Assembly (NCBI RefSeq): GCF_023913515.1
Contig: NZ_CP099391.1
Coordinates: 806,001 to 870,000 of the forward strand
Length of the DNA: 64,000 nucleotides
Origin: Natronococcus sp. CG52
GTDB taxonomy: Archaea; Halobacteriota; Halobacteria; Halobacteriales; Natrialbaceae
Direction of reading: 5' to 3'
A program made the translations under genes and the position numbers. Below the pieces are notes generated by a model. It did no database searches and was not told where the DNA came from. It saw only the letters and a program-made list of their open reading frames with translations. This document shows, piece after piece, positions 7,852-19,281 of the stretch (position 1 is the first letter of the stretch; each line of letters begins with the position of its first letter).

Positions 7852-9249
7852 TCAGTCGTCGGCGACGGCGTCGCCCGTTCCGCCGCCCGACGAGCGGAAC
7901 TCGCCGTCGACGTACCGGTCGTCGTACAGGAGACACGCGATCTCGTGCGTCTCACCCGTCCGGACGTGGTCCGGATTGTGCTCCTCGCACGGGGACGTGA
8001 ACGTCTCGTCGAGCACTCCTCGAGCGGTCTCGAAGTCTTCCGCGTGAAGCGCGTCGACGATCTGCGAGAGGGTTCGTTCGGCCGTGGAGTCGGACACCGT
8101 CTCGGGAATACCGAACTCGTCGCGAACCAGTTCGCCGAACCGGTCGCGAGACACCGCGTTCGGATCGACCCGTTCGTCCTGTGTCCCCTCGATTTCGTCG
8201 ACCGCGGTGATCGACTCGAGTTCGTCGGAGCCCATCACCCGTAACTTGAGGTCGACGATCGACCGCCAGACGTCCTGGGGCAGGTCGATCTCGTCGGGCG
8301 GGATGATGCGGGGACAGCGCGTGTGGAACCGACAGCCCGAGGGCGGGTTCATCGGCGACGGAACCGTTCCGGGCAAAAGGATCTGTTCACCCTCCCAGAG
8401 GGGATCGGGTTCGGGAATCGCCGAGAGCAGCGCCTCCGCGTACGGGTGGTGGGGCGGCGAGAACACCTCTTCGGTCGTCCCGATCTCCGCGAACTCGCCG
8501 AGGTACATCACGGCGACGCGGTCCGAGATGTGTTCGACGACGCTCAGGTCGTGTGCGATGAAGATGTACGAGAGTCCGAACTCCTCCTGGAGGTCCTCGA
8601 GCAGGTTGAGGATCTGCGCCTGCACCGAGACGTCGAGCGCGCTGACCGGTTCGTCACAGACGATGATCTCGGGGTCGACCGCGAGCGCGCGAGCGATGCC
8701 GATGCGCTGGCGCTGTCCGCCGGAGAACTCGTGGGGGTAGCGGTGAGCGTGGCTGGGACTCAGTCCGACGGTCTCGAGGAGTTCGTAGATTCGTTCCGTT
8801 CGTTCCTCCCCCTCGGCGAGGCCGTGAATGTCGAGTGGCTCGCCGATGATGTCGCCGACGGTGAGCCGCGGATTCAGACTCGAGAACGGATCCTGGAAGA
8901 TGTACTGCAGGTCCTTCCGGAGGTCACGGAGCTCCGAACTCGAGAGGTCGGTCACCTCGATCTCCTCCTGGTGAGACGAGTCGCCGGAGTCGACTCGGTT
9001 CTGGTAGTACACCGACCCCTCCGTCGGCTCGATCAGTCGGAGCAACGATCGGCCGAGCGTACTCTTTCCGCAACCCGACTCGCCGACGACGCCGAGGGTC
9101 TCTCCCTCGTACAGTTCGAGATCGATACCGTCGACTGCCTTGACCCACTGCGAGCGTCCGAGCAGATTGTCGATGACGCCCTCACTGGTGTCGTAGTACT
9201 TCTTCAGATTCTCGGCCCGCAGGAGGGGCTCTTCGTTCGGTCTAGTCAT
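7852..9249 (-). CDS. dppF: Peptide ABC transporter ATP-binding protein, DppF-like (second system)
   Basis: The 465-residue ATPase has Walker [11 protein letters not shown]-loop [17 protein letters not shown], signature [15 protein letters not shown], Walker [13 protein letters not shown] and H-loop AHD. The tail has [12 protein letters not shown] and [13 protein letters not shown], then the extra helical C-terminal segment seen in the other DppF. ATG at 9249 begins four residues before [11 protein letters not shown] and overlaps the previous gene's TAG stop by 8 nt (ATGACTAG). A longer frame from 9288 would add 13 unlikely residues. It is the last gene of the leftward operon that starts with the binding protein at 14349. 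Confidence 0.92.
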
Positions 9250-10339
9250 TTCGATCACGCTCCGGATTCGGTGCGGTTGCGCCGGCACCGGCTTCGGCTT
9301 TGGCCGACTCGGAACGAACCTCGACGGAGTAATCGAGGCCGTCCTGCAGGTCGCCGGTGTACTCGAGACACGCGGCCGCGCGCTCGGTCTTGGGACCGGT
9401 AGCTTTCGCGCCGGTTTCCGGGTCGAGCAGCGGCGGCTCCCGTTTCGTACAGACGTCCTCGGCGTACGGACACCGCGGGTGGAAGCTACAGCCCGGCGGC
9501 AGTTCGACGAGGTCCGGCATAGCGCCGGGGATGGTCTGCAGTCGCTCCCGTTTGTTGCCGACTCGTGGAATCGAACTCATCAACCCGACCGTGTAGGGGT
9601 GTTTCGGATCGTAGTAGAGCTCCTCGACGGGAGCCTTCTCGACCGGTTTCCCGGCGTACATGACCATCACTCGGTCACAGACCTCGGCGACGACGCCGAG
9701 GTCGTGCGTGATGAGCTGGATCGCCGTATCGAACTCGTCTGCGAGCGACTCGAGTTCGTCCAGAATCTGGGCCTCGATCGTCACGTCGAGCGCGGTCGTC
9801 GGCTCGTCACAGAGGAGTAGGTCGGGGTCACAGGAGAGCGCCATCGCGATGACCGCACGCTGTTGCATCCCGCCGGAGAACTCGTGCGGGTAGTCGGAGA
9901 ACCGCGCTTCGGCCTCCGGAATCCCGACGGTGTCGAGCAGCTGAATCGTCCGCTCGCGGGCTTCCTCCTCGTCGTAGTCGAGGTGGTGTCTGACCGCCTC
10001 GGAGATCTGCTCGCCGACGGTGTAGACGGGGTTGAGCGCCGTCTGTGCGTCCTGGAAGATCATGGCGATCTCGTTGCCACGAACGTCCCGGATCTCCTCT
10101 TCGGTCATCTCGAGAAGATCCTCCCCTTTGAACAGGATCTCTCCGCTCTCGATCCGACCCGGACTCTCGATGAGTCGCATCAGTGAGAGCGCGGTTACGC
10201 TCTTGCCGGCACCGCTCTCGCCGACGACGCCGAACTTCTCGCCGCGCTCGATACGATACGAGAGGTCGTCGACGGCGGTGACGACTCCTTCTTGCGTGTA
10301 GAACTTTACCGTGAGATCGTTGACCTCGAGTAGTGCCAT
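9242..10339 (-). CDS. dppD: Peptide ABC transporter ATP-binding protein, DppD-like (second system)
   Basis: The 365-residue ATPase has Walker A GESGAGKS, Q-loop MIFQDAQTALNPVYTVG, signature FSGGMQQRAVIAMAL, Walker B LLLCDEPTTALD and H-loop ITHD. The tail carries HPYTVGLMSSIPRV and the cysteine set CSFHPRCPYAEDVC, followed by an acidic, low-complexity end. It starts two bases after the permease C stop and overlaps the DppF gene, so all five genes of the set are tightly packed. Confidence 0.92.
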   Translation of the reverse strand: MALLEVNDLTVKFYTQEGVVTAVDDLSYRIERGEKFGVVGESGAGKSVTALSLMRLIESPGRIESGEILFKGEDLLEMTEEEIRDVRGNEIAMIFQDAQTALNPVYTVGEQISEAVRHHLDYDEEEARERTIQLLDTVGIPEAEARFSDYPHEFSGGMQQRAVIAMALSCDPDLLLCDEPTTALDVTIEAQILDELESLADEFDTAIQLITHDLGVVAEVCDRVMVMYAGKPVEKAPVEELYYDPKHPYTVGLMSSIPRVGNKRERLQTIPGAMPDLVELPPGCSFHPRCPYAEDVCTKREPPLLDPETGAKATGPKTERAAACLEYTGDLQDGLDYSVEVRSESAKAEAGAGATAPNPERDRND

Positions 10340-10341
10340 AG

Positions 10342-11391
10342 TTAGCCACCTCCTTGCTGTTCGATGCCGGTCTCCTGGGCGTCGAACGCGTCGTTGATGC
10401 CGTCACCGATCATGTTCATCGCCATCACGAACAGGAAGATCGCGCCGCCAGGGAAGATCGTCGCCCACCAGGGGATCGCCCCCTCGGGGCCCTGGATCAG
10501 CGTATCGCGGGTCTGATCCAGCATCGTCCCCCACTCGGCGCTGCCGGGCGGCATCCCGAGACCGAGGAATCCGAGCGCAGCGACGCCGATGACGACGGTA
10601 CCGATGTTGAGCGTCGCAACGACGATCATCGGTGGCATCGCGTTCGGGACGATGTGTCTGAAGATGACGGATCGATCACGTGCGCCGAGCGCCTTCGCGG
10701 CCATGACGTACTCGTTCTCTTTGACGGTCAGAACCTCCCCGCGGATGAGACGTGCGTACGTAACCCAGCCAGGGAGGGTGAACGCGGCGACGAGTTGCCA
10801 GTAGCCACCGCCGAGAATCGCGACGATGATCAGCGCCAGGATGAGCGCCGGGAACGCGTAGACGGTGTCGACGATTCGCATCATGATTTCGTCGACCCAG
10901 CCGCCGTAGTAGCCGGAGATGGCACCGTAGACCAGTCCGAAGACGCCGGTGAGCGCGACGACGACGAAGCCGATCGAGATGCTGTATCGGCCGCCGTAGA
11001 GGACGCGCGAGAACAGGTCGCGCCCGGAGCCGTCGGTCCCCATCGGGTGTTCGAGTGTCGGCGAGTCGTAGACTCCCGCAGAGGACTCCGGCGTCATATA
11101 CATGATCGTCGTCGGATCGTACGGCGCCAGCGAGAACGGCTGGACCGTCATCCCCACGACCGTGATCGGACGCGCGAAGAGTGCGCACAGAGAGAGGACG
11201 GCGACGACGAAGAGGCCGATCAGCGCGGACCGGTTGTGCTTGAATCGTTTCCAGGCTCGTCCCAGTCGGCTCTCGGTCTCTCTCCCGCTCTCCTCGGTCC
11301 ATCCGGATAACGGTTCCCGTCGTCGTACTTTCTCTGCGTCGAATCCGGAAACCTGGATCCGTCCACGTTCCGTGTGCTCGTTGCTAGTCAT
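10342..11391 (-). CDS. dppC: Peptide ABC transporter permease, DppC-like (second system)
   Basis: The 349-residue permease has a cytoplasmic N-terminus, a first helix (SALIGLFVVAVLSLCALFA), and an external loop with HPMGTDGSGRDLFSRVLYGG, the signature of DppC. Five further helices and the coupling loop YVMAAKALGARDRSVIFRHI follow; it ends MIGDGINDAFDAQ. Its start overlaps the permease B gene by 8 nt. With DppB it forms the membrane channel fed by the binding protein at 12394-14349. Confidence 0.93.
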   Translation of the reverse strand: MTSNEHTERGRIQVSGFDAEKVRRREPLSGWTEESGRETESRLGRAWKRFKHNRSALIGLFVVAVLSLCALFARPITVVGMTVQPFSLAPYDPTTIMYMTPESSAGVYDSPTLEHPMGTDGSGRDLFSRVLYGGRYSISIGFVVVALTGVFGLVYGAISGYYGGWVDEIMMRIVDTVYAFPALILALIIVAILGGGYWQLVAAFTLPGWVTYARLIRGEVLTVKENEYVMAAKALGARDRSVIFRHIVPNAMPPMIVVATLNIGTVVIGVAALGFLGLGMPPGSAEWGTMLDQTRDTLIQGPEGAIPWWATIFPGGAIFLFVMAMNMIGDGINDAFDAQETGIEQQGGG

Positions 11392-12340
11392 ATCTGATCC
11401 TCGGATCGAGTACCGCGTACAGGATGTCTGCCAGCAGATTCGCGATGATGATGAACACGCCGGTAAACAGCGTGATCGCCATGATGAGATTTATCTCTCG
11501 TTCGTCGATCGCCGTGATGAACTCCCGACCGAGCCCCGGCCAGTTGAACACCACCTCGACGACGACCGAACCGGCGACGATACTCGCGGTCAGCGTCGCG
11601 GCGAGCGTGACGACGGAGATGAGCGAGTTTCGGAGGACGTGCTTGAGGACGACCGTTCGCTCCGGGAGTCCCTTCGCTCGCGCGGCGGTCACGTACTCCT
11701 TGTTCATCTCCTCGGCCATCGACGTGCGCATCACGCGCATGATACTCGCCGCGGCGGCGGTCCCGATCGTGATACCGGGCAGTACCAGGTACCACAGCAT
11801 CTGGGGATGGTACAGCGCGTGTCTCGAGGGCGGCAACACGGGCCACAGTCCGATCCAGAGTGCGCCGATCAGGATCAGCATCAGGCCGAGCCAGAAGTTC
11901 GGGATCGAGATGCCCGAGAGCGCGAGGAACCGGCTGGCGGTGTCGGCGAACTTGTCCTTGTTGATGGCCGCGTAAATCCCGGAGGGGATCGCGATCGCGA
12001 GTCCGAACGCCCAGCCGAAAAGACCGAGGGCGATCGTCTCGGGGAGACGCGTCATCACGACCTCCGAAACGTCGCGGCCGGAGCCGATCACTTGGCCGAA
12101 GTCACCGGTCAACACGTTCCCCATCCAGGTCAGGTACTGCTCCCAGATCGGTCCGTCGAGACCGTACCGGGCGCGTAGTTGGGCCTCTTCGGCCGCCGTT
12201 ACGTTCGGGTTCATTGCAACCATCTGGGCGATCGGATCTCCCGGCGTAAGGTGTACCAGCGAGAACGTAATCACTGAGACACCGAACAGGATCGGGATAA
12301 TCGATAACAGTCGCTTCAGTATGAAACGTCGTAAGCTCAT
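11384..12340 (-). CDS. dppB: Peptide ABC transporter permease, DppB-like (second system)
   Basis: The 318-residue permease starts MSLRRFILKRLLSIIPILFGVS, the typical DppB N-terminal helix, followed by VHLTPGDPIAQM and a loop with LDGPIWEQYLTWMGNVLTGD. The coupling loop is YVTAARAKGLPERTVVLKHVL, and the end LADILYAVLDPRIRYD is characteristic. It is separated by 53 nt from the binding-protein gene and overlaps permease C. Confidence 0.94.
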   Translation of the reverse strand: MSLRRFILKRLLSIIPILFGVSVITFSLVHLTPGDPIAQMVAMNPNVTAAEEAQLRARYGLDGPIWEQYLTWMGNVLTGDFGQVIGSGRDVSEVVMTRLPETIALGLFGWAFGLAIAIPSGIYAAINKDKFADTASRFLALSGISIPNFWLGLMLILIGALWIGLWPVLPPSRHALYHPQMLWYLVLPGITIGTAAAASIMRVMRTSMAEEMNKEYVTAARAKGLPERTVVLKHVLRNSLISVVTLAATLTASIVAGSVVVEVVFNWPGLGREFITAIDEREINLIMAITLFTGVFIIIANLLADILYAVLDPRIRYD

Positions 12341-12393: not shown

Positions 12394-14349
12394 TTACTCG
12401 AGATCGTGGTCTGCGATCACTTCTTCGAGCAACTCCGCCGCGGCTTCGGGATCGTACTCGTTGTACGGTCGAATCTCCTCTTCGAGCGCGTCGGCGTCGA
12501 CGGTGCCGGCCTCTTCGGCGAGTTCCGGCAGGTCGGTCCAGGCCGGACGGGCCCAGTCGTTCAGCACGTACTCGACGATCTGTTCGCGGGGGATGAGGTG
12601 GTTGATAGCCTGACGGAATCGCTCGTCGTCCCAGGGCATCTCGTCGTCGGCGGAGTTAACCGGGTACTGGATGTACTCGTACCCGCCCGCTTCGACGGCT
12701 TCGACGACGTAGTCGCCGGAGTCGTCGAACTCGTCGAGGTCGGCCGTCGAGAGACCGTACGTAATGTCGATCTCGTCGTTCTGCAGCGCGGCGGATCGGC
12801 TCGAGTCGTCCGGAGCGATCTCCAGTTCGACCTCGTCGATGACGGGACCGTCCGGGAACTCTTCGGGACCGTCGAACCACTCCTTCTGCTCGAGACCGAT
12901 CTCTTCGAGCCAGTAGTTGTCGTTCTTGGTGTACTCGACGTACTGCTCGTCCGAGAAATCGCTGAACTCGTAGGGACCGGTACCGATCGGTTCGACGCCG
13001 TCGTCTCCCCGTGGATCGAGCTCGCCGCCCTCGAGGTCTGCCTGCTCGAGCGAGTGGATGTACAGACCTGGAAGCTCCCGCTCGGCCTCGGCGTCGGGAA
13101 TCTGCGCGTAGAGGTAAACCGTGTTGTCGCCGTCCGCTTCGGCGTGAAGCAGCGAGTCGAACGTCTGGGCCTCGAGGTCGGAGCCATAGTATCGTTCGAC
13201 GGTCGCGATGACGTGCTCGGACGTGAACTCTTCGCCGTTGTGGAACTCGATGCCCTCGTGGAGGTCGTAGCGGAACCGCATCCCGAAGGTGCCGTCGTCG
13301 ATGGCTTCCTGGGCGTCGCCGGGAAGGAGGACGCGAATTTCGTCGTCCTCGACCGGATCGTCCTCGGGGTGACGGATGATGACCTGCTCGTCGGTATCGA
13401 GGATTCCTTCCTCGTCCGCTCCGACCGTGGACATGTAGTCCTCGTAGTCGAGTCGCTCGACGTCGTTGACCTCCTCGAGTTCGTAGTCCTCGGCGAGCCA
13501 CGGGTAGAGGTTCCCCTCCTTGTCACTTGCGACGAGCTGTTCGAAGACGAACTCCTGTGCGAGCGTCGAGGTCGTGTCGGTGCTGTACGGCGGGTCGAAC
13601 GAGGCAACGTTCGCGGCGATACCACCACGGAGCGTTCCCCCTTCCTGGAGATCCGAAAGGCCGGTCTCCCGCGGATCCGCGTCCTCGTCCATCCAGAGGA
13701 CCTGCTCGTCCTGGGGGGAGTGCAGACTGTGTTCGAAAATGCTCTCACTGAACGGGTACATGCTGAACCCGTGAACGTTGTTGTTCGTCACGCCTGCAAC
13801 GAGATCGAAGTGGGTGATCGAACTGTAGCGGTTCTCGGCGAGATGCGTCCAGACCTCGTCGTAGCGCTCGCGACGGAGGTCCTCGTCTCCCGAGACCTCG
13901 ACGCCGTAGCGGGCGTCGTCGAGCAGGTCGTCGAGTTCAGAGTCGTTGATTCCGACGAGGTTACAGCACTGTCCGTGGTTCGTGCTGTGGTGAAGCGCCT
14001 GACAGAAACTCTCCGGATTGAACGTTCCCGAAAGGCCGATACAGGGAACGTTCCCGCTCTCGGCGTACTCGAGGTCCATCACGCGCTCGATGTAGTTGTT
14101 CCACTCGTAGGTCTCGATCTCCGTGCTGAAGTACCCCGAATCCTCCAGCGACGTGGAGATTAGTTCGACCATCTGCACCCGGTCGTCGTTGTCGGCGTTC
14201 ACTTCGAGCTGAACGTGGAACGTGGGATCGTCGTCCCCGTCCTCGCCACCGAGACATCCAGCAACTGCTGCGATACTCACTCCACCAACCCCTTGAAGTA
14301 GTCGCCGCCGATCGACGGTAAGGGAGGACTGCTTGTTATCCTGCACCAT
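12394..14349 (-). CDS. dppA: Circularly permuted peptide ABC transporter substrate-binding lipoprotein
   Basis: The 651-residue protein has a Tat-type lipoprotein signal: VDRRRLLQG, then a hydrophobic stretch to lipobox AVAGC (Cys32). After it the family-5 binding-protein segments appear in swapped order. Residues about 44-215 (FHVQLEVNADNDDRVQMVEL ... GFSMYPFSESIFEHSLHSPQ) match what is normally the C-terminal part of haloarchaeal family members. Residues about 235-651 (GGTLRGGIAANVASFDPPYS ... WDDERFRQAINHLIPREQIV ... EAAAELLEEVIADHDLE) match the normal N-terminal part. No second C-terminal copy follows the stop, so this is a permutation, not a duplication. Length suits one whole protein. 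It heads the operon with permeases and ATPases and should present peptides or similar ligands outside the membrane. Confidence 0.88.
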   Translation of the reverse strand: MVQDNKQSSLTVDRRRLLQGVGGVSIAAVAGCLGGEDGDDDPTFHVQLEVNADNDDRVQMVELISTSLEDSGYFSTEIETYEWNNYIERVMDLEYAESGNVPCIGLSGTFNPESFCQALHHSTNHGQCCNLVGINDSELDDLLDDARYGVEVSGDEDLRRERYDEVWTHLAENRYSSITHFDLVAGVTNNNVHGFSMYPFSESIFEHSLHSPQDEQVLWMDEDADPRETGLSDLQEGGTLRGGIAANVASFDPPYSTDTTSTLAQEFVFEQLVASDKEGNLYPWLAEDYELEEVNDVERLDYEDYMSTVGADEEGILDTDEQVIIRHPEDDPVEDDEIRVLLPGDAQEAIDDGTFGMRFRYDLHEGIEFHNGEEFTSEHVIATVERYYGSDLEAQTFDSLLHAEADGDNTVYLYAQIPDAEAERELPGLYIHSLEQADLEGGELDPRGDDGVEPIGTGPYEFSDFSDEQYVEYTKNDNYWLEEIGLEQKEWFDGPEEFPDGPVIDEVELEIAPDDSSRSAALQNDEIDITYGLSTADLDEFDDSGDYVVEAVEAGGYEYIQYPVNSADDEMPWDDERFRQAINHLIPREQIVEYVLNDWARPAWTDLPELAEEAGTVDADALEEEIRPYNEYDPEAAAELLEEVIADHDLE

Positions 14350-14551: not shown

Positions 14552-15118
14552 CTAATCGCCCTCTTCGTCGACGATCACGACTTCACCGTCGACGACGTCG
14601 ACGTTGATCAGCGTCTTGACGTCGTAACCGGCGTCGTCGACCTTGTTTTCGCCGCCGACCTTCTTGATGACCGCGACCGTGTCGATGACCTCCGCACCGA
14701 TGCCGTCGAGCGCTTCGAGGACGGACGCGAGCGTCCCGCCCGTCGAGAGCACGTCGTCGAGGACGAGCACGCGCTCGCCCTCGCGCACGTCGTTGATGTA
14801 CATCTCGTTCTCCGAGTAGCCCGTCTTCTGGGAGATCGCGACCTCGTCTTCGAGACCGTACTGGCGCTTCCGGATGACGGTCAGGGGAATGTCCGTCATC
14901 AGGGAGACGGCCGTCGAGATGTGAATCCCCATCGCCGCCGGAGTAACGATCCGGTCGACTTCCTCGAGGTCTGCCTTGCGAATGATGCGAATAACGATCT
15001 CGCGCAGCAGGGTCGGGTCGAGTTTCGGGACCCCGTCGCTGATCGGATGGACGAAGTAATGATACCCGTTTTTCTCGATGATGGGCGCGTCGAGAAGCGA
15101 CTGCTTCAACTGGTCCAT
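14552..15118 (-). CDS. hpt: Hypoxanthine/guanine phosphoribosyltransferase (archaeal type)
   Basis: The 188-residue protein has the type I phosphoribosyltransferase fold. The PRPP-binding motif [17 protein letters not shown] lies near residues 125-141, preceded by [16 protein letters not shown] and the flexible loop [19 protein letters not shown]. It matches the archaeal HGPRTase-like group that transfers ribose-5-phosphate from PRPP to a purine base in salvage. Substrate preference in this group (hypoxanthine, guanine or adenine) varies and cannot be read from the sequence. It is a single gene with its own short upstream region. Confidence 0.85.
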
Positions 15119-15881: not shown

Positions 15882-17087
15882 TTAGGTCCCCGGTTCGCCG
15901 TCGCCCAGCACCGCTGCGATCGAGTCGGCGACCTCGAAACTTAGCCCCGACTTGGTCCCTTCGTACCGCGCGGCGTCCGCGTCGTGGACCAGCAACGCAC
16001 GCGTCCGATCCGACCCCATGACGCTCGCGTCGTTGGCGACGACGAACGCGAGGTCGGTCCGCTCGAGCCTCTCCCTCGCCCGCTCGATCATCGCCTCGTC
16101 GTCGCCCGACGTCTCGGTTTTGAACCCGACGATGGGCAGATCGGGGTGGTCCGCGCGAACCTCGTCGATCAGCTTCGGCGTCGGCTCGAGGTCCAGCGTG
16201 AGTTCCTGGCCGGACCGGATCTTCTCGGCGCTCGGATCGACGGTGTAGTCGCCGATCGCGGCGACCGACACCAGCGCGTCGGCCTCGGTGCAGGCCTCGG
16301 CGGTCTCTTCGAGCATCTCTTCGGCGCTCTCGACCTGGCGCAACTCGGCGTACGGGGCGTCCGTCGAGGTGCCCTGCTCGAGCGGTCGCGGGCCGACGAC
16401 GCCGTGAACCAGCGTCACGTCGGCGCCGCGAACGGAACAGGCCCTGGCGACCGCCCGGCCCATCTTCCCCGACGAGCGGTTCGTCAGGACGCGGACTGGA
16501 TCGATCTCCTCGCTCGTCGCGCCGCTGGTAACGACGACGTGGCGACCCTCGAGCGGTCGGTCGCCGGCCGACCGGGCGACGGCGGTGACGATCGCTTCCT
16601 CGCTCGCGATCTTCGCCTTCCCCTCTTCGATCCGCGGGTCGACGAAGTCGACGCCCCAGTCCTCGACGGTCTCGATGGCCTCGAGCACGCCGGGGTGGTC
16701 GTACATCGGTTCGTGCATCGCCGGCGCGATCACGACCGGGGTGTCGGCGCCGAGCGCGGTCGTCGCACACGTCGTGACGGGCGTGTCGTCGACCGCGCCG
16801 GCGATCTTGCCGACCGTGTTGGCGGTCGCCGGCGCGATCAGGAAGACGTCGACCCAGCCGTCGTAGCCGCAGAGGGCGACGTGCTCGACGCTTCCCGTGA
16901 TCTCCGTGACGACGTCGTCGTCCGTGGCGAACTCGACGGCCCAGGGGTGGACGATCCCCTGCGCGCTGTCGGTCATCACGCCTCGGACCGCGGCACCGTG
17001 TCGCCGCAACTCGTGGGCTAGCTCGACCGTCTTCACGGCCGCGATCGATCCCGTCACCCCGAGCGCGACGTTGACTCCCTCGAGCAT
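15882..17087 (-). CDS. coaBC: Bifunctional phosphopantothenoylcysteine decarboxylase / phosphopantothenate-cysteine ligase
   Basis: The 401-residue fusion carries out two steps of coenzyme A synthesis. The N-terminal CoaC flavoprotein domain (about 1-185) has GVTGSIAAVKTVELAHEL, the catalytic region EHVALCGYDGWVDVFLIAPA, TANTVGKIAGAVDDTPVTT and the substrate-clamping IAPAMHEPMYDHP. The C-terminal CoaB domain (about 190-400) starts GRHVVVTSGATSEEIDPVRV and continues with NRSSGKMGRAVA and VVANDASVMGSD. It appears to be a single-gene unit; the short gap to the upstream siderophore synthetase gene (61 nt, same strand) could allow read-through. Confidence 0.95.
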   Translation of the reverse strand: MLEGVNVALGVTGSIAAVKTVELAHELRRHGAAVRGVMTDSAQGIVHPWAVEFATDDDVVTEITGSVEHVALCGYDGWVDVFLIAPATANTVGKIAGAVDDTPVTTCATTALGADTPVVIAPAMHEPMYDHPGVLEAIETVEDWGVDFVDPRIEEGKAKIASEEAIVTAVARSAGDRPLEGRHVVVTSGATSEEIDPVRVLTNRSSGKMGRAVARACSVRGADVTLVHGVVGPRPLEQGTSTDAPYAELRQVESAEEMLEETAEACTEADALVSVAAIGDYTVDPSAEKIRSGQELTLDLEPTPKLIDEVRADHPDLPIVGFKTETSGDDEAMIERARERLERTDLAFVVANDASVMGSDRTRALLVHDADAARYEGTKSGLSFEVADSIAAVLGDGEPGT

Positions 17088-17148: not shown

Positions 17149-19281
17149 TTACGGATCGATCCGCCGCCGTCCGGCCGCGGAGAGCGGGTTCGACACCTCG
17201 CTCGTCACGTACTCGTGGCGCTTGCCGCGAAGACGCATCGCGGTCAGCGCCTTGTGCGTCGTCGGCTCCGCGAACAGTGCGCGCTCGTCGCGCCGGATCC
17301 GATCGTCGGGAGCCGCCGCGTCGGCTCGGAGCGTCTCGAAGGCTCGTTCGCACCGGGCCTGGATCCGTTCCCAGCAGGCTCGCTCGTCGACGGGGAGTTC
17401 GTCGGCGATCGTCGCGACGAGTTCCGCGAGGTGGTTCTGGAAGAGCGCGTAGTACAACTTCCGGTAGAGGTCTCCCTCGCCGTCGGCGTCGACGTCCGAG
17501 TCCGGATACGGCTCGAGCGAGAGTCCGTGTTCGGCGAGCCGTTCCCGGTGCACTCGAATCCCGCCGAGATCGCGGACGAGGGTCGCGACCGGGCGCGCGT
17601 CCTCGACGTCGAAGACGATCAGGCTGTTCTGGAGGTGGCTCTCGACGGCGATGCCGTACACGCACAGCAGTCGGAGCTGCTCGGGGACGACGACGCGGGC
17701 GTACCGGTCGACGAACGCGAGCGCCGCGTCGGCGGTGTCGGCGGCGTCCGTCGTCTCTCCGTGCTGTTCGATCAGCTCGCGGACGAGGGGGCGGCCGGTG
17801 GTTGGCGCGTCGGCGACGAGACTCGAAGCGACGACCGGCGCCGATCCCTCGTCTACGAGCGGGTGAGTGGACGGATTCGTTCGGGCCAGCCCCGAGAGGT
17901 GTCGGGCGTCGTCGAACTCGTCGCCGCTCGGATGGGGTCCATCCGGCGGGTAGTAGCAGGTCGCCGCCGGCTCGGAGAGCAAGCCGAGCGTCTCGAGTGA
18001 CTCCCGTTCCTCGAGCGCTCGGACGACGTCGGTCACCTGCGGCCCGTTCGTCACGGCGTGGGGCGACAGCGTCCGGACGACGTTCGTCGTCTGGACGGGG
18101 ATCGCGAGCTTGAGGTGAGGAAGCGGTTTCCCTCCGGTGCGTTCGGTTTCGTGGGGAACTACCGTCCGGAGGTTGAGCTGCGGCGTCGCCGGCTGAGCGT
18201 AGTCCGGAATCGGGACGACCCGTCCGTCGGCCCGCTGACGAGCGTAGCGTTCTGGGATCGTCCGGTGGTACTGCAGCGGATGGACGGGGATGACAGCGTA
18301 TTCTTCGCGCGCGCGACCCGCTGGAATCGCGCGCTCGAGGGCGTCCTCGAGTCCCGCGAACGTCGCGTACAGTCGGTCGGTCAGCCGATCGGCGCCGTCC
18401 GCACGCGTCTCCAGGGCGTACTCCCTGTCGACGGCGACGAACCGAAGGTCGATTCGGTCGGTGAACTCCGGCGCGTAGGCGAGCCCGTCGGCGGCGTTCA
18501 TCCCCCGCCGGATCTTCCCGGCGGGATGGAACGGGTGACCGTCGGTGACGATCCGCTCGAATGCGGTGGCGGGATCGGCGGCCGAGACGCCGGTCTGAAT
18601 CGTCTCGAAGACCGAGTCGGTCGCTCCGGCGGTTCCGTCCCGAACGACCCGCGAGTGGACGCGGCCGGCCAGCCGCGCCAGCGCGAGGTTGGCGACGCTC
18701 TCGGCGACCTCCTCGCGGATCCGGGTGGCCTGGTCGGCGTCGCTGAACGCGCCTTCGCGCTCGAGGAGCGGGACGAGATCGACCGGGTGCGTGATCCGTT
18801 CGGCTCCGGTGGGAGTCGTCCTTGCCGACACTGTATCCGGCGACCACTGCTGGACCGGACCGATAAGCCGGAACCGGTCGTAGCCGCGTCTCGCCGCGAC
18901 CGGGATCACCAGAAGCGTCTCGGAGGCGGGAAACGAGAGGAGCGCGAGTCGACGACATCGGTCCGGTAGGGGTTCCGCGAGCGAGCGCAGTCGATCCGCG
19001 TCGAGGCCGTCGAACGGCGGCAGCTCCGCCGGAAGCTCGGAGAGAGCGGGTTCGACGAGGCGAGGCGTGGGGAGGCCCGCTGGTTTTCCTCGGAGGATGC
19101 CGTGGACGAATCGACGAAGGATGTCGCGTCGAGCGTCTTCGAGCGCCTCGAGATACGGAGCCTCCGCCGGCGTCTCGAGGTCGTGGGCTCGCGCGTAGTG
19201 GGTGGCCGCGCCGAACGCCTCCCGCTCCGCGCTCGTTCGGAGGCGTGCCGAACCCCGGTCTCGTCGGGTCGTTCTGTTCAT
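17149..19281 (-). CDS. IucA/IucC family NRPS-independent siderophore synthetase
   Basis: The 710-residue protein shows the NIS synthetase core: DGHPFHPAGKIRRGM (ATP and substrate region, about residue 250), YAVIPVHPLQYHRTIPERYA, KLAIPVQTTNVVRTLSPHAV, and a C-terminal palm with CVYGIAVESHLQNSLIVFD and FQNHLAELV. These enzymes adenylate a carboxylate (often citrate) and join it to an amine or alcohol to make a siderophore. A complete haloarchaeal pathway normally includes a decarboxylase, an aminotransferase, a hydroxylase and an acyltransferase; none is nearby. The upstream neighbour is a flavoprotein oxidoreductase. The family is clear; the product is not. Confidence 0.88.
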   Translation of the reverse strand: MNRTTRRDRGSARLRTSAEREAFGAATHYARAHDLETPAEAPYLEALEDARRDILRRFVHGILRGKPAGLPTPRLVEPALSELPAELPPFDGLDADRLRSLAEPLPDRCRRLALLSFPASETLLVIPVAARRGYDRFRLIGPVQQWSPDTVSARTTPTGAERITHPVDLVPLLEREGAFSDADQATRIREEVAESVANLALARLAGRVHSRVVRDGTAGATDSVFETIQTGVSAADPATAFERIVTDGHPFHPAGKIRRGMNAADGLAYAPEFTDRIDLRFVAVDREYALETRADGADRLTDRLYATFAGLEDALERAIPAGRAREEYAVIPVHPLQYHRTIPERYARQRADGRVVPIPDYAQPATPQLNLRTVVPHETERTGGKPLPHLKLAIPVQTTNVVRTLSPHAVTNGPQVTDVVRALEERESLETLGLLSEPAATCYYPPDGPHPSGDEFDDARHLSGLARTNPSTHPLVDEGSAPVVASSLVADAPTTGRPLVRELIEQHGETTDAADTADAALAFVDRYARVVVPEQLRLLCVYGIAVESHLQNSLIVFDVEDARPVATLVRDLGGIRVHRERLAEHGLSLEPYPDSDVDADGEGDLYRKLYYALFQNHLAELVATIADELPVDERACWERIQARCERAFETLRADAAAPDDRIRRDERALFAEPTTHKALTAMRLRGKRHEYVTSEVSNPLSAAGRRRIDP

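Follow-up and report, generated by a model that had tools for sequence, protein, structure and literature searches.

A naturally circularly permuted Opp/Dpp-type importer lipoprotein, very likely produced by tandem duplication

The window, a stretch of 64,000 nucleotides of Natronococcus sp. CG52, encodes a substrate-binding protein (SBP) of family 5 (SBP_bac_5) in which the part that normally ends these proteins comes first and their normal beginning and middle come last (Table 1). This locus raises the question of whether the chain is a true circular permutation of the family and, if so, how it arose and what became of its lipid anchor and its transporter. The initial annotation, which had only the DNA to go on, proposed a permuted order with limits at residues 44–215 and about 235–651. 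These limits proved right within a few residues. Its claims that the protein contains one copy of each part, keeps its full length and remains linked to a transporter all held.

Table 1. Coordinates of the permuted binding-protein gene, its parts, its neighbors and further genes discussed in the text. Positions without a locus handle are those of the window.
Feature	Position	Strand	Details
SBP_bac_5-type binding lipoprotein ORF	12394-14349	minus	stop 12394-12396; 651 amino acids, uninterrupted
Signal region, residues 1-32	14254..14349	minus	by sequence: Tat-type twin-arginine motif (DRRRLLQG), lipobox AGC with Cys32
Residues 44-215, normally C-terminal in family-5 proteins, here first	13705..14220	minus	aligns to end of normal orthologues L064-L081
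Linker residues 216-236, old C-terminus to old N-terminus	13642..13704	minus	about QDEQVLWMDEDADPRETGLSDLQEGG
Residues 237-651, usual start and middle of the chain, now last	12397..13641	minus	Pfam PF00496, E 7.2e-51
OppB-like permease	11384..12340	minus	PF00528 and PF19300; adjoins SBP in all loci of the window's family
OppC-like permease	10342..11391	minus	PF00528 and PF12911
OppD-like ATPase	9242..10339	minus	PF00005 and PF08352
OppF-like ATPase	7852..9288	minus	PF00005 and PF08352
Purine-type phosphoribosyltransferase-like gene (name by eye)	14552..15118	minus	upstream marker in permuted and normal loci
CoaBC-like gene (name by eye)	15882..17087	minus	syntenic marker
ORF resembling IucA/IucC-type siderophore synthetase (by eye)	17149-19281	minus	
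PAP2-linked permuted SBP	L096:1989-3746	minus	own genome C1:1081000
PAP2-linked permuted SBP	L096:4676-6646	minus	own genome C1:1083705
PAP2-linked permuted SBP	L097:3006-4748	plus	own genome C1:1578505
L006 permuted SBP	L098:8905-10746	minus	own genome C1:2379404-2381245; last ~75 residues moved to front
Window orthologue cut elsewhere (G074)	L062:2909-4810	minus	
Permuted SBP without lipobox	L269:2740-4479	minus	
Tandem duplicate ORF (G063)	L333:4114-7989	minus	1292 amino acids

Chain order and predicted fold of the window protein

The window protein is a circularly permuted homologue of family-5 binding proteins and does not follow their canonical collinear order. Membership in the family (cluster C), judged by the PF00496 cut-off of 32.4 bits, is met with a score of 173.9 bits. 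The Pfam SBP_bac_5 profile aligns residues 356–643 to profile positions 16–275 of 368, and the chain ends 8 residues further on. Searched alone, the sequence from residue 44 onward matches profile positions 291–339 weakly (E 0.067), chain residues 352–498 of HbpA (3m8u), which are its C-terminal part (E 2.6e-4), and residues 362–502 of DppA (1dpp), again weakly (E 0.9). The last aligned residue of the body, 643, corresponds to DppA 337, which therefore places the cut at about DppA 338–349. Each part of the protein is present once, and the linker that joins them retains both the old C-tail and the old acidic linker that follows the lipobox.

An independent measure of chain order came from a rotation test, in which the best score against an HMM of 65 family-5 proteins, all of them bacterial, was compared before and after doubling of the mature sequence. 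Joining the ends raised the score of the window protein by 48 bits and those of 33 permuted proteins by 18–81 bits; the gain of every normal-order protein was 0.3 bits or less. The test misses six proteins (L058, L059, L082, L084, L088 and L092) because HMMER splits their domain. L062 and L006 are also invisible to it, and the permuted order of all these proteins was assigned from separate alignments. Standard resources do not reveal the rearrangement: Pfam and NCBIfam models match chiefly the larger part of permuted proteins, the moved part goes undetected, and no NCBIfam model covering the permuted order was found. Sequence comparison of the permuted forms tested with PDB chains found none in collinear order, and a search by sequence found no solved structure of a permuted family-5 protein.

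AlphaFold2, supplied with the permuted alignment, predicts one complete fold for the window protein (pLDDT 87.8, pTM 0.85); the corresponding values for the normal orthologue L064 are 85.5 and 0.83. Helices and strands follow one another in rotated order between the two models. The fold predicted for the window protein is the two-lobed fold of cluster C, and its best fold matches are AppA, NikA and DppA. Foldseek aligned the normal form with AppA over 618 columns (TM 0.81, E 2.5e-35) and the permuted window form over 436 columns (TM 0.48, E 6e-13). The shorter alignment is as a permutation predicts, because Foldseek follows chain order; when structures are compared in an order-bound way, permuted forms appear only about half as similar.

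The ligand is less readily assigned. DppA clamps its dipeptide with R383 and D436 (PMC12136057). In the alignment with DppA, read by eye, the R383 position in the window protein is occupied by Asn and the D436 position falls in a Ser/Gly/Thr stretch. Judged by these clamp residues, which are not retained at the aligned positions, the window protein does not appear to be a DppA-type dipeptide binder. The motifs GLSGTFNP and QCCN are common to permuted and normal forms and have no assigned role.

Orthologues, operon and spread of the permuted order

We searched 100 haloarchaeal genomes for orthologues of the window protein. Nineteen genomes, that of the window among them, gave full-length matches in its permuted order (identity to the others 52–92%), and many of the remaining genomes contained two-piece matches in normal order. 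Reading of the ORFs yielded 19 permuted, 21 normal-order and 1 differently permuted orthologue encoded by single ORFs. The permuted orthologues span many genera, in genomes some of which are assembled in one to three contigs, and they keep the signal region and lipobox. The differently permuted orthologue (L062) carries its first ~85 body residues at the very C-terminus. Normal-order orthologues are up to 64% identical to the window protein and are located in the same type of operon.

The window locus, whose operon encodes a pair of permeases and a pair of ATPases, satisfies the definition of an Opp/Dpp-type importer, and most permuted orthologues likewise lie in an SBP-OppB-C-D-F operon. Both forms share the syntenic order CoaBC - DUF - phosphoribosyltransferase - SBP - OppB - OppC - OppD - OppF; the SBP at that place is permuted in the window, L044, L051, L052 and L054, for example, and in normal order in L068 and L071. 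A second permuted group (L082–L094) occupies the same place. Its proteins start ~20 residues earlier than the window protein, and their cut precedes a helix that the window protein retains at its end. In two loci (L060 in G041 and L061 in G059), two convergent transporter sets are neighbors; the SBP is permuted in one set and in normal order in the other, and a single ATPase gene pair lies between both sets.

Analysis of substitution rates revealed that both parts of the window gene and its linker are under purifying selection. Against two orthologues, dN/dS was 0.15 and 0.23 overall, with both parts constrained, and 0.13–0.14 in the linker. The order of the permuted gene, its inheritance and its linkage to the operon are established along with this selection. 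The history within the window's family is less clear. In the SBP tree, permuted forms are nested among normal-order ones, and the best ML tree places the normal forms L064–L066 inside the permuted group. If this topology is correct, a second permutation, a reversal or a gene replacement is therefore needed. A single origin is not rejected by the AU test (p 0.22), and the permease tree decides neither for single nor for multiple origin.

The initial annotation treated one gene; the phenomenon turned out to be recurrent and widespread. Five of the 11 family-5 proteins in the window's genome are permuted, namely the window protein, three proteins encoded beside PAP2-type membrane phosphatases, and L006. 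Most of the 61 haloarchaeal genomes searched contain the PAP2-linked SBP at full length and in permuted order, in one to three copies. Each of these lipoprotein genes is directly followed by a PAP2-type phosphatase gene (PF14378) and has no permease; this pairing of a binding protein with a lipid phosphatase is unexplained. The L006-type permutation was found in four genomes, including G008, G066 and G034, and its relatives are in normal order. The Pfam table shows the permuted signature in seven of eight further genomes, drawn from eight families.

Outside Halobacteria, permuted SBPs (L269–L272) are carried by four genomes of one family, which we take to be Archaeoglobus-like. The L269 protein lacks a lipobox and ends, by eye, in a PGF-CTERM-like C-terminal anchor, so it would be anchored at its new C-terminus. 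The permuted form is rare among 50 bacterial genomes sampled, where a spirochaete MAG carries it. Among 249 Bacillota genomes sampled, two groups were cut at different places, L311–L316 near profile position 358–380 and L321–L328 (seven genomes) near 217, and L330 was cut near 346. In L225 (G084), the cut lies near profile position 450. Altogether we found about 100 permuted genes in Halobacteria, the Archaeoglobus-like family, a spirochaete and Bacillota. This total includes only single ORFs; rows with an internal stop were excluded as possible tandem neighbors or broken genes. A tree of 254 proteins resolves five breakpoint classes (about 90, 217, 330–380, 430 and 450) and 13 parsimony changes. 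Given weakly supported nodes in this tree, the number of events is put at about 8–13. We conclude that permutation in family 5 has recurred in several independent events across archaea and bacteria.

Origin of the rotated chain and position of the lipid anchor

The junctions of the window protein are informative about its origin. At the fused ends the window reads ...HSPQDEQVLWMDEDADPRETGLSDLQEGGTLRGG, with nothing lost. This stretch begins with the normal C-tail, as in ...YSPTEEQVIYLERDE of L067, and then continues as the normal segment from the lipobox to the first strand, as in ...SDREEVDFADLQEGGTLRGA of L064. At the new ends, the protein stops at LLEEVIADHDLE and starts at PTFHVQLEVNADND, which together make up the uninterrupted LLEEVVDDLGLDTPIEIQLEVNADND of normal L067. 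Intact sequence at both the fused and the new ends is what would remain if a gene had been duplicated in tandem and in frame and then trimmed of its outer parts.

A tandem duplicate of this kind exists in the L006 subfamily. The ORF of L333 encodes two in-frame tandem copies, 69% identical over 543 amino acids, behind one signal peptide, and the L006 permuted protein is collinear across the copy junction (residues 3–609 to 559–1175). No tandem duplicate was found in the window's own family. The initial annotation had proposed duplication and trimming, and this claim is supported by the near-perfect preservation of the ends together with the tandem duplicate in a related subfamily. We consider the duplication route likely, with the in-frame intermediate drawn from another subfamily.

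These considerations suggest a model in which the gene for an ordinary family-5 binding protein would have been duplicated in tandem and in frame, so that copy 1 would run at its end straight into the beginning of copy 2. Copy 1 would then lose its first part behind the signal, and copy 2 its last part. The resulting permuted protein would fold into the unchanged two-lobed trap and serve the same OppBCDF transporter. We propose that trap and transporter could be retained because the old ends are close together and the new ends lie in a surface loop. Binding and transport may proceed just as they do with the normal order, and the lipid anchor would no longer hold the N-lobe but the C-lobe, by a shorter tether. 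No experiment has been performed; even so, the window protein is very likely a naturally circularly permuted Opp/Dpp-type importer lipoprotein generated by tandem duplication.

That Cys32 carries the lipid is inferred from the lipobox motif alone. In the permuted lipoproteins that we read, signal and lipobox remain at the front, and the anchor point therefore changes with each cut. Homology mapping suggests that it moves from the start of the N-lobe in the normal form to a strand of the C-lobe in the permuted form. Lobe assignment uses the DppA mapping and established domain limits. The median tether is 13 residues in permuted orthologues versus 32 in normal ones. The earlier claim that the moved anchor alters docking on the permease thus held in part: the anchor shift and the shorter tether are supported, and an effect on docking remains an inference with no functional effect shown.

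The explanation that fares worst, misassembly or fusion of two neighboring genes, found no support beyond the caution that tandem neighbors mimic the pattern when searches read through stops, and it is virtually ruled out by uninterrupted single ORFs in 19 independent assemblies and by dN/dS values that stay far under 1 over the junction. Of the checks proposed at the outset, collinearity with homologues was not observed, the survey of related genomes recovered the same order in 19 haloarchaeal genomes, and the separateness of these assemblies disposes of misassembly.

A second possibility is that the front part derives from another paralogue, in which case the protein would be a chimera and not a permutation. 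Recombination between paralogues is conceivable in a genome with 11 family copies. However, both parts best match the same normal-order genes, in G073 (L064) and G009 (L067), with identities to the window protein of 63–64% in the body and 55–62% in the moved part. We regard a chimera as very unlikely.

A third reading holds that the permutation was adaptive, in that moving the anchor to the C-lobe and shortening the tether changed how the SBP meets its permease. The difference in median tether length and the shift of the anchor point with each cut are in its favor, and an adaptation of anchoring was raised by the authors who described TpMglB-2 (PMC4990184). Against it, equally similar permeases pair with normal and permuted forms: OppB is 86% identical to the window's in both L051 (permuted operon) and L064 (normal operon). 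Moreover, the persistence of several breakpoints suits tolerance as well as selection. An adaptive permutation remains possible. It is tempting to go further and to view family-5 proteins as topologically fluid, such that permutation relocates the anchor, leaves trap and transporter unchanged, and allows evolution to tune the anchor position. We hold this bolder reading only tentatively and would not favor it at present.

Among these alternatives, the one that survives best is neutral drift, according to which any order is tolerated and duplications were fixed by chance, with Tat export helping in haloarchaea. Tat moves folded proteins and on this reading sets no demand on chain order. Recurrent events with unrelated breakpoints and the Tat-type signal on the window protein support this view. 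On the other hand, permuted forms in Bacillota and in the Archaeoglobus-like family carry signals that look Sec-type by eye, so Tat export is not required. On balance, we lean slightly toward drift as the account of why permuted forms persist.

Comparison with known systems

Circular permutations that arose in nature are uncommon and mostly of great age, which makes the states before and after hard to compare. Here related haloarchaea carry both orders in one and the same operon, in orthologues that share up to 64% identity, and a tandem duplicate has been caught midway. The paired orders, the independent events and the tandem duplicate therefore allow two questions to be tested directly. One is whether the order of the chain influences how a secreted protein folds, is exported and docks; the other is whether it matters where on a binding protein the lipid anchor sits. 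The natural cut sites also provide ready positions for permuted biosensors made from peptide-binding proteins.

The general model of permutation by duplication expects an intermediate such as L333, with its in-frame tandem copy and single signal; in the present case, intermediate and product come from related subfamilies and not from one lineage. With the family-5/cluster C proteins DppA, AppA, OppA and NikA (PF00496), the window protein shares homology, the predicted two-lobed fold, its nature as a lipoprotein and an Opp/Dpp-type operon. It differs from them in its rotated chain, with a new N-terminus at about DppA 338–349, and in its moved lipid anchor. Our search of the open-access literature turned up no account of permuted proteins in family 5 (cluster C). 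The kind of event is known; what is new, as far as we have seen, is its occurrence in family 5, the number of breakpoints and the presence of both orders in one operon.

The closest precedent is TpMglB-2 (Tp0684) of Treponema pallidum. This ABC-importer lipoprotein is likewise a natural circular permutation, and it binds glucose and closes (PMC4990184). Its authors proposed the designation 'Type Ic / Cluster Bc' and noted tethering as a possible cause (PMC4990184). TpMglB-2 has the type I/cluster B sugar-binding fold, which the window protein does not share, since its fold and sequence matches all belong to family 5/cluster C. In TpMglB-2, the permutation involves one breakpoint in one family, and the permuted part is poorly similar. 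The permuted family-5 proteins, unlike TpMglB-2, belong to cluster C, were cut at several breakpoints and have close normal-order relatives in the same operon.
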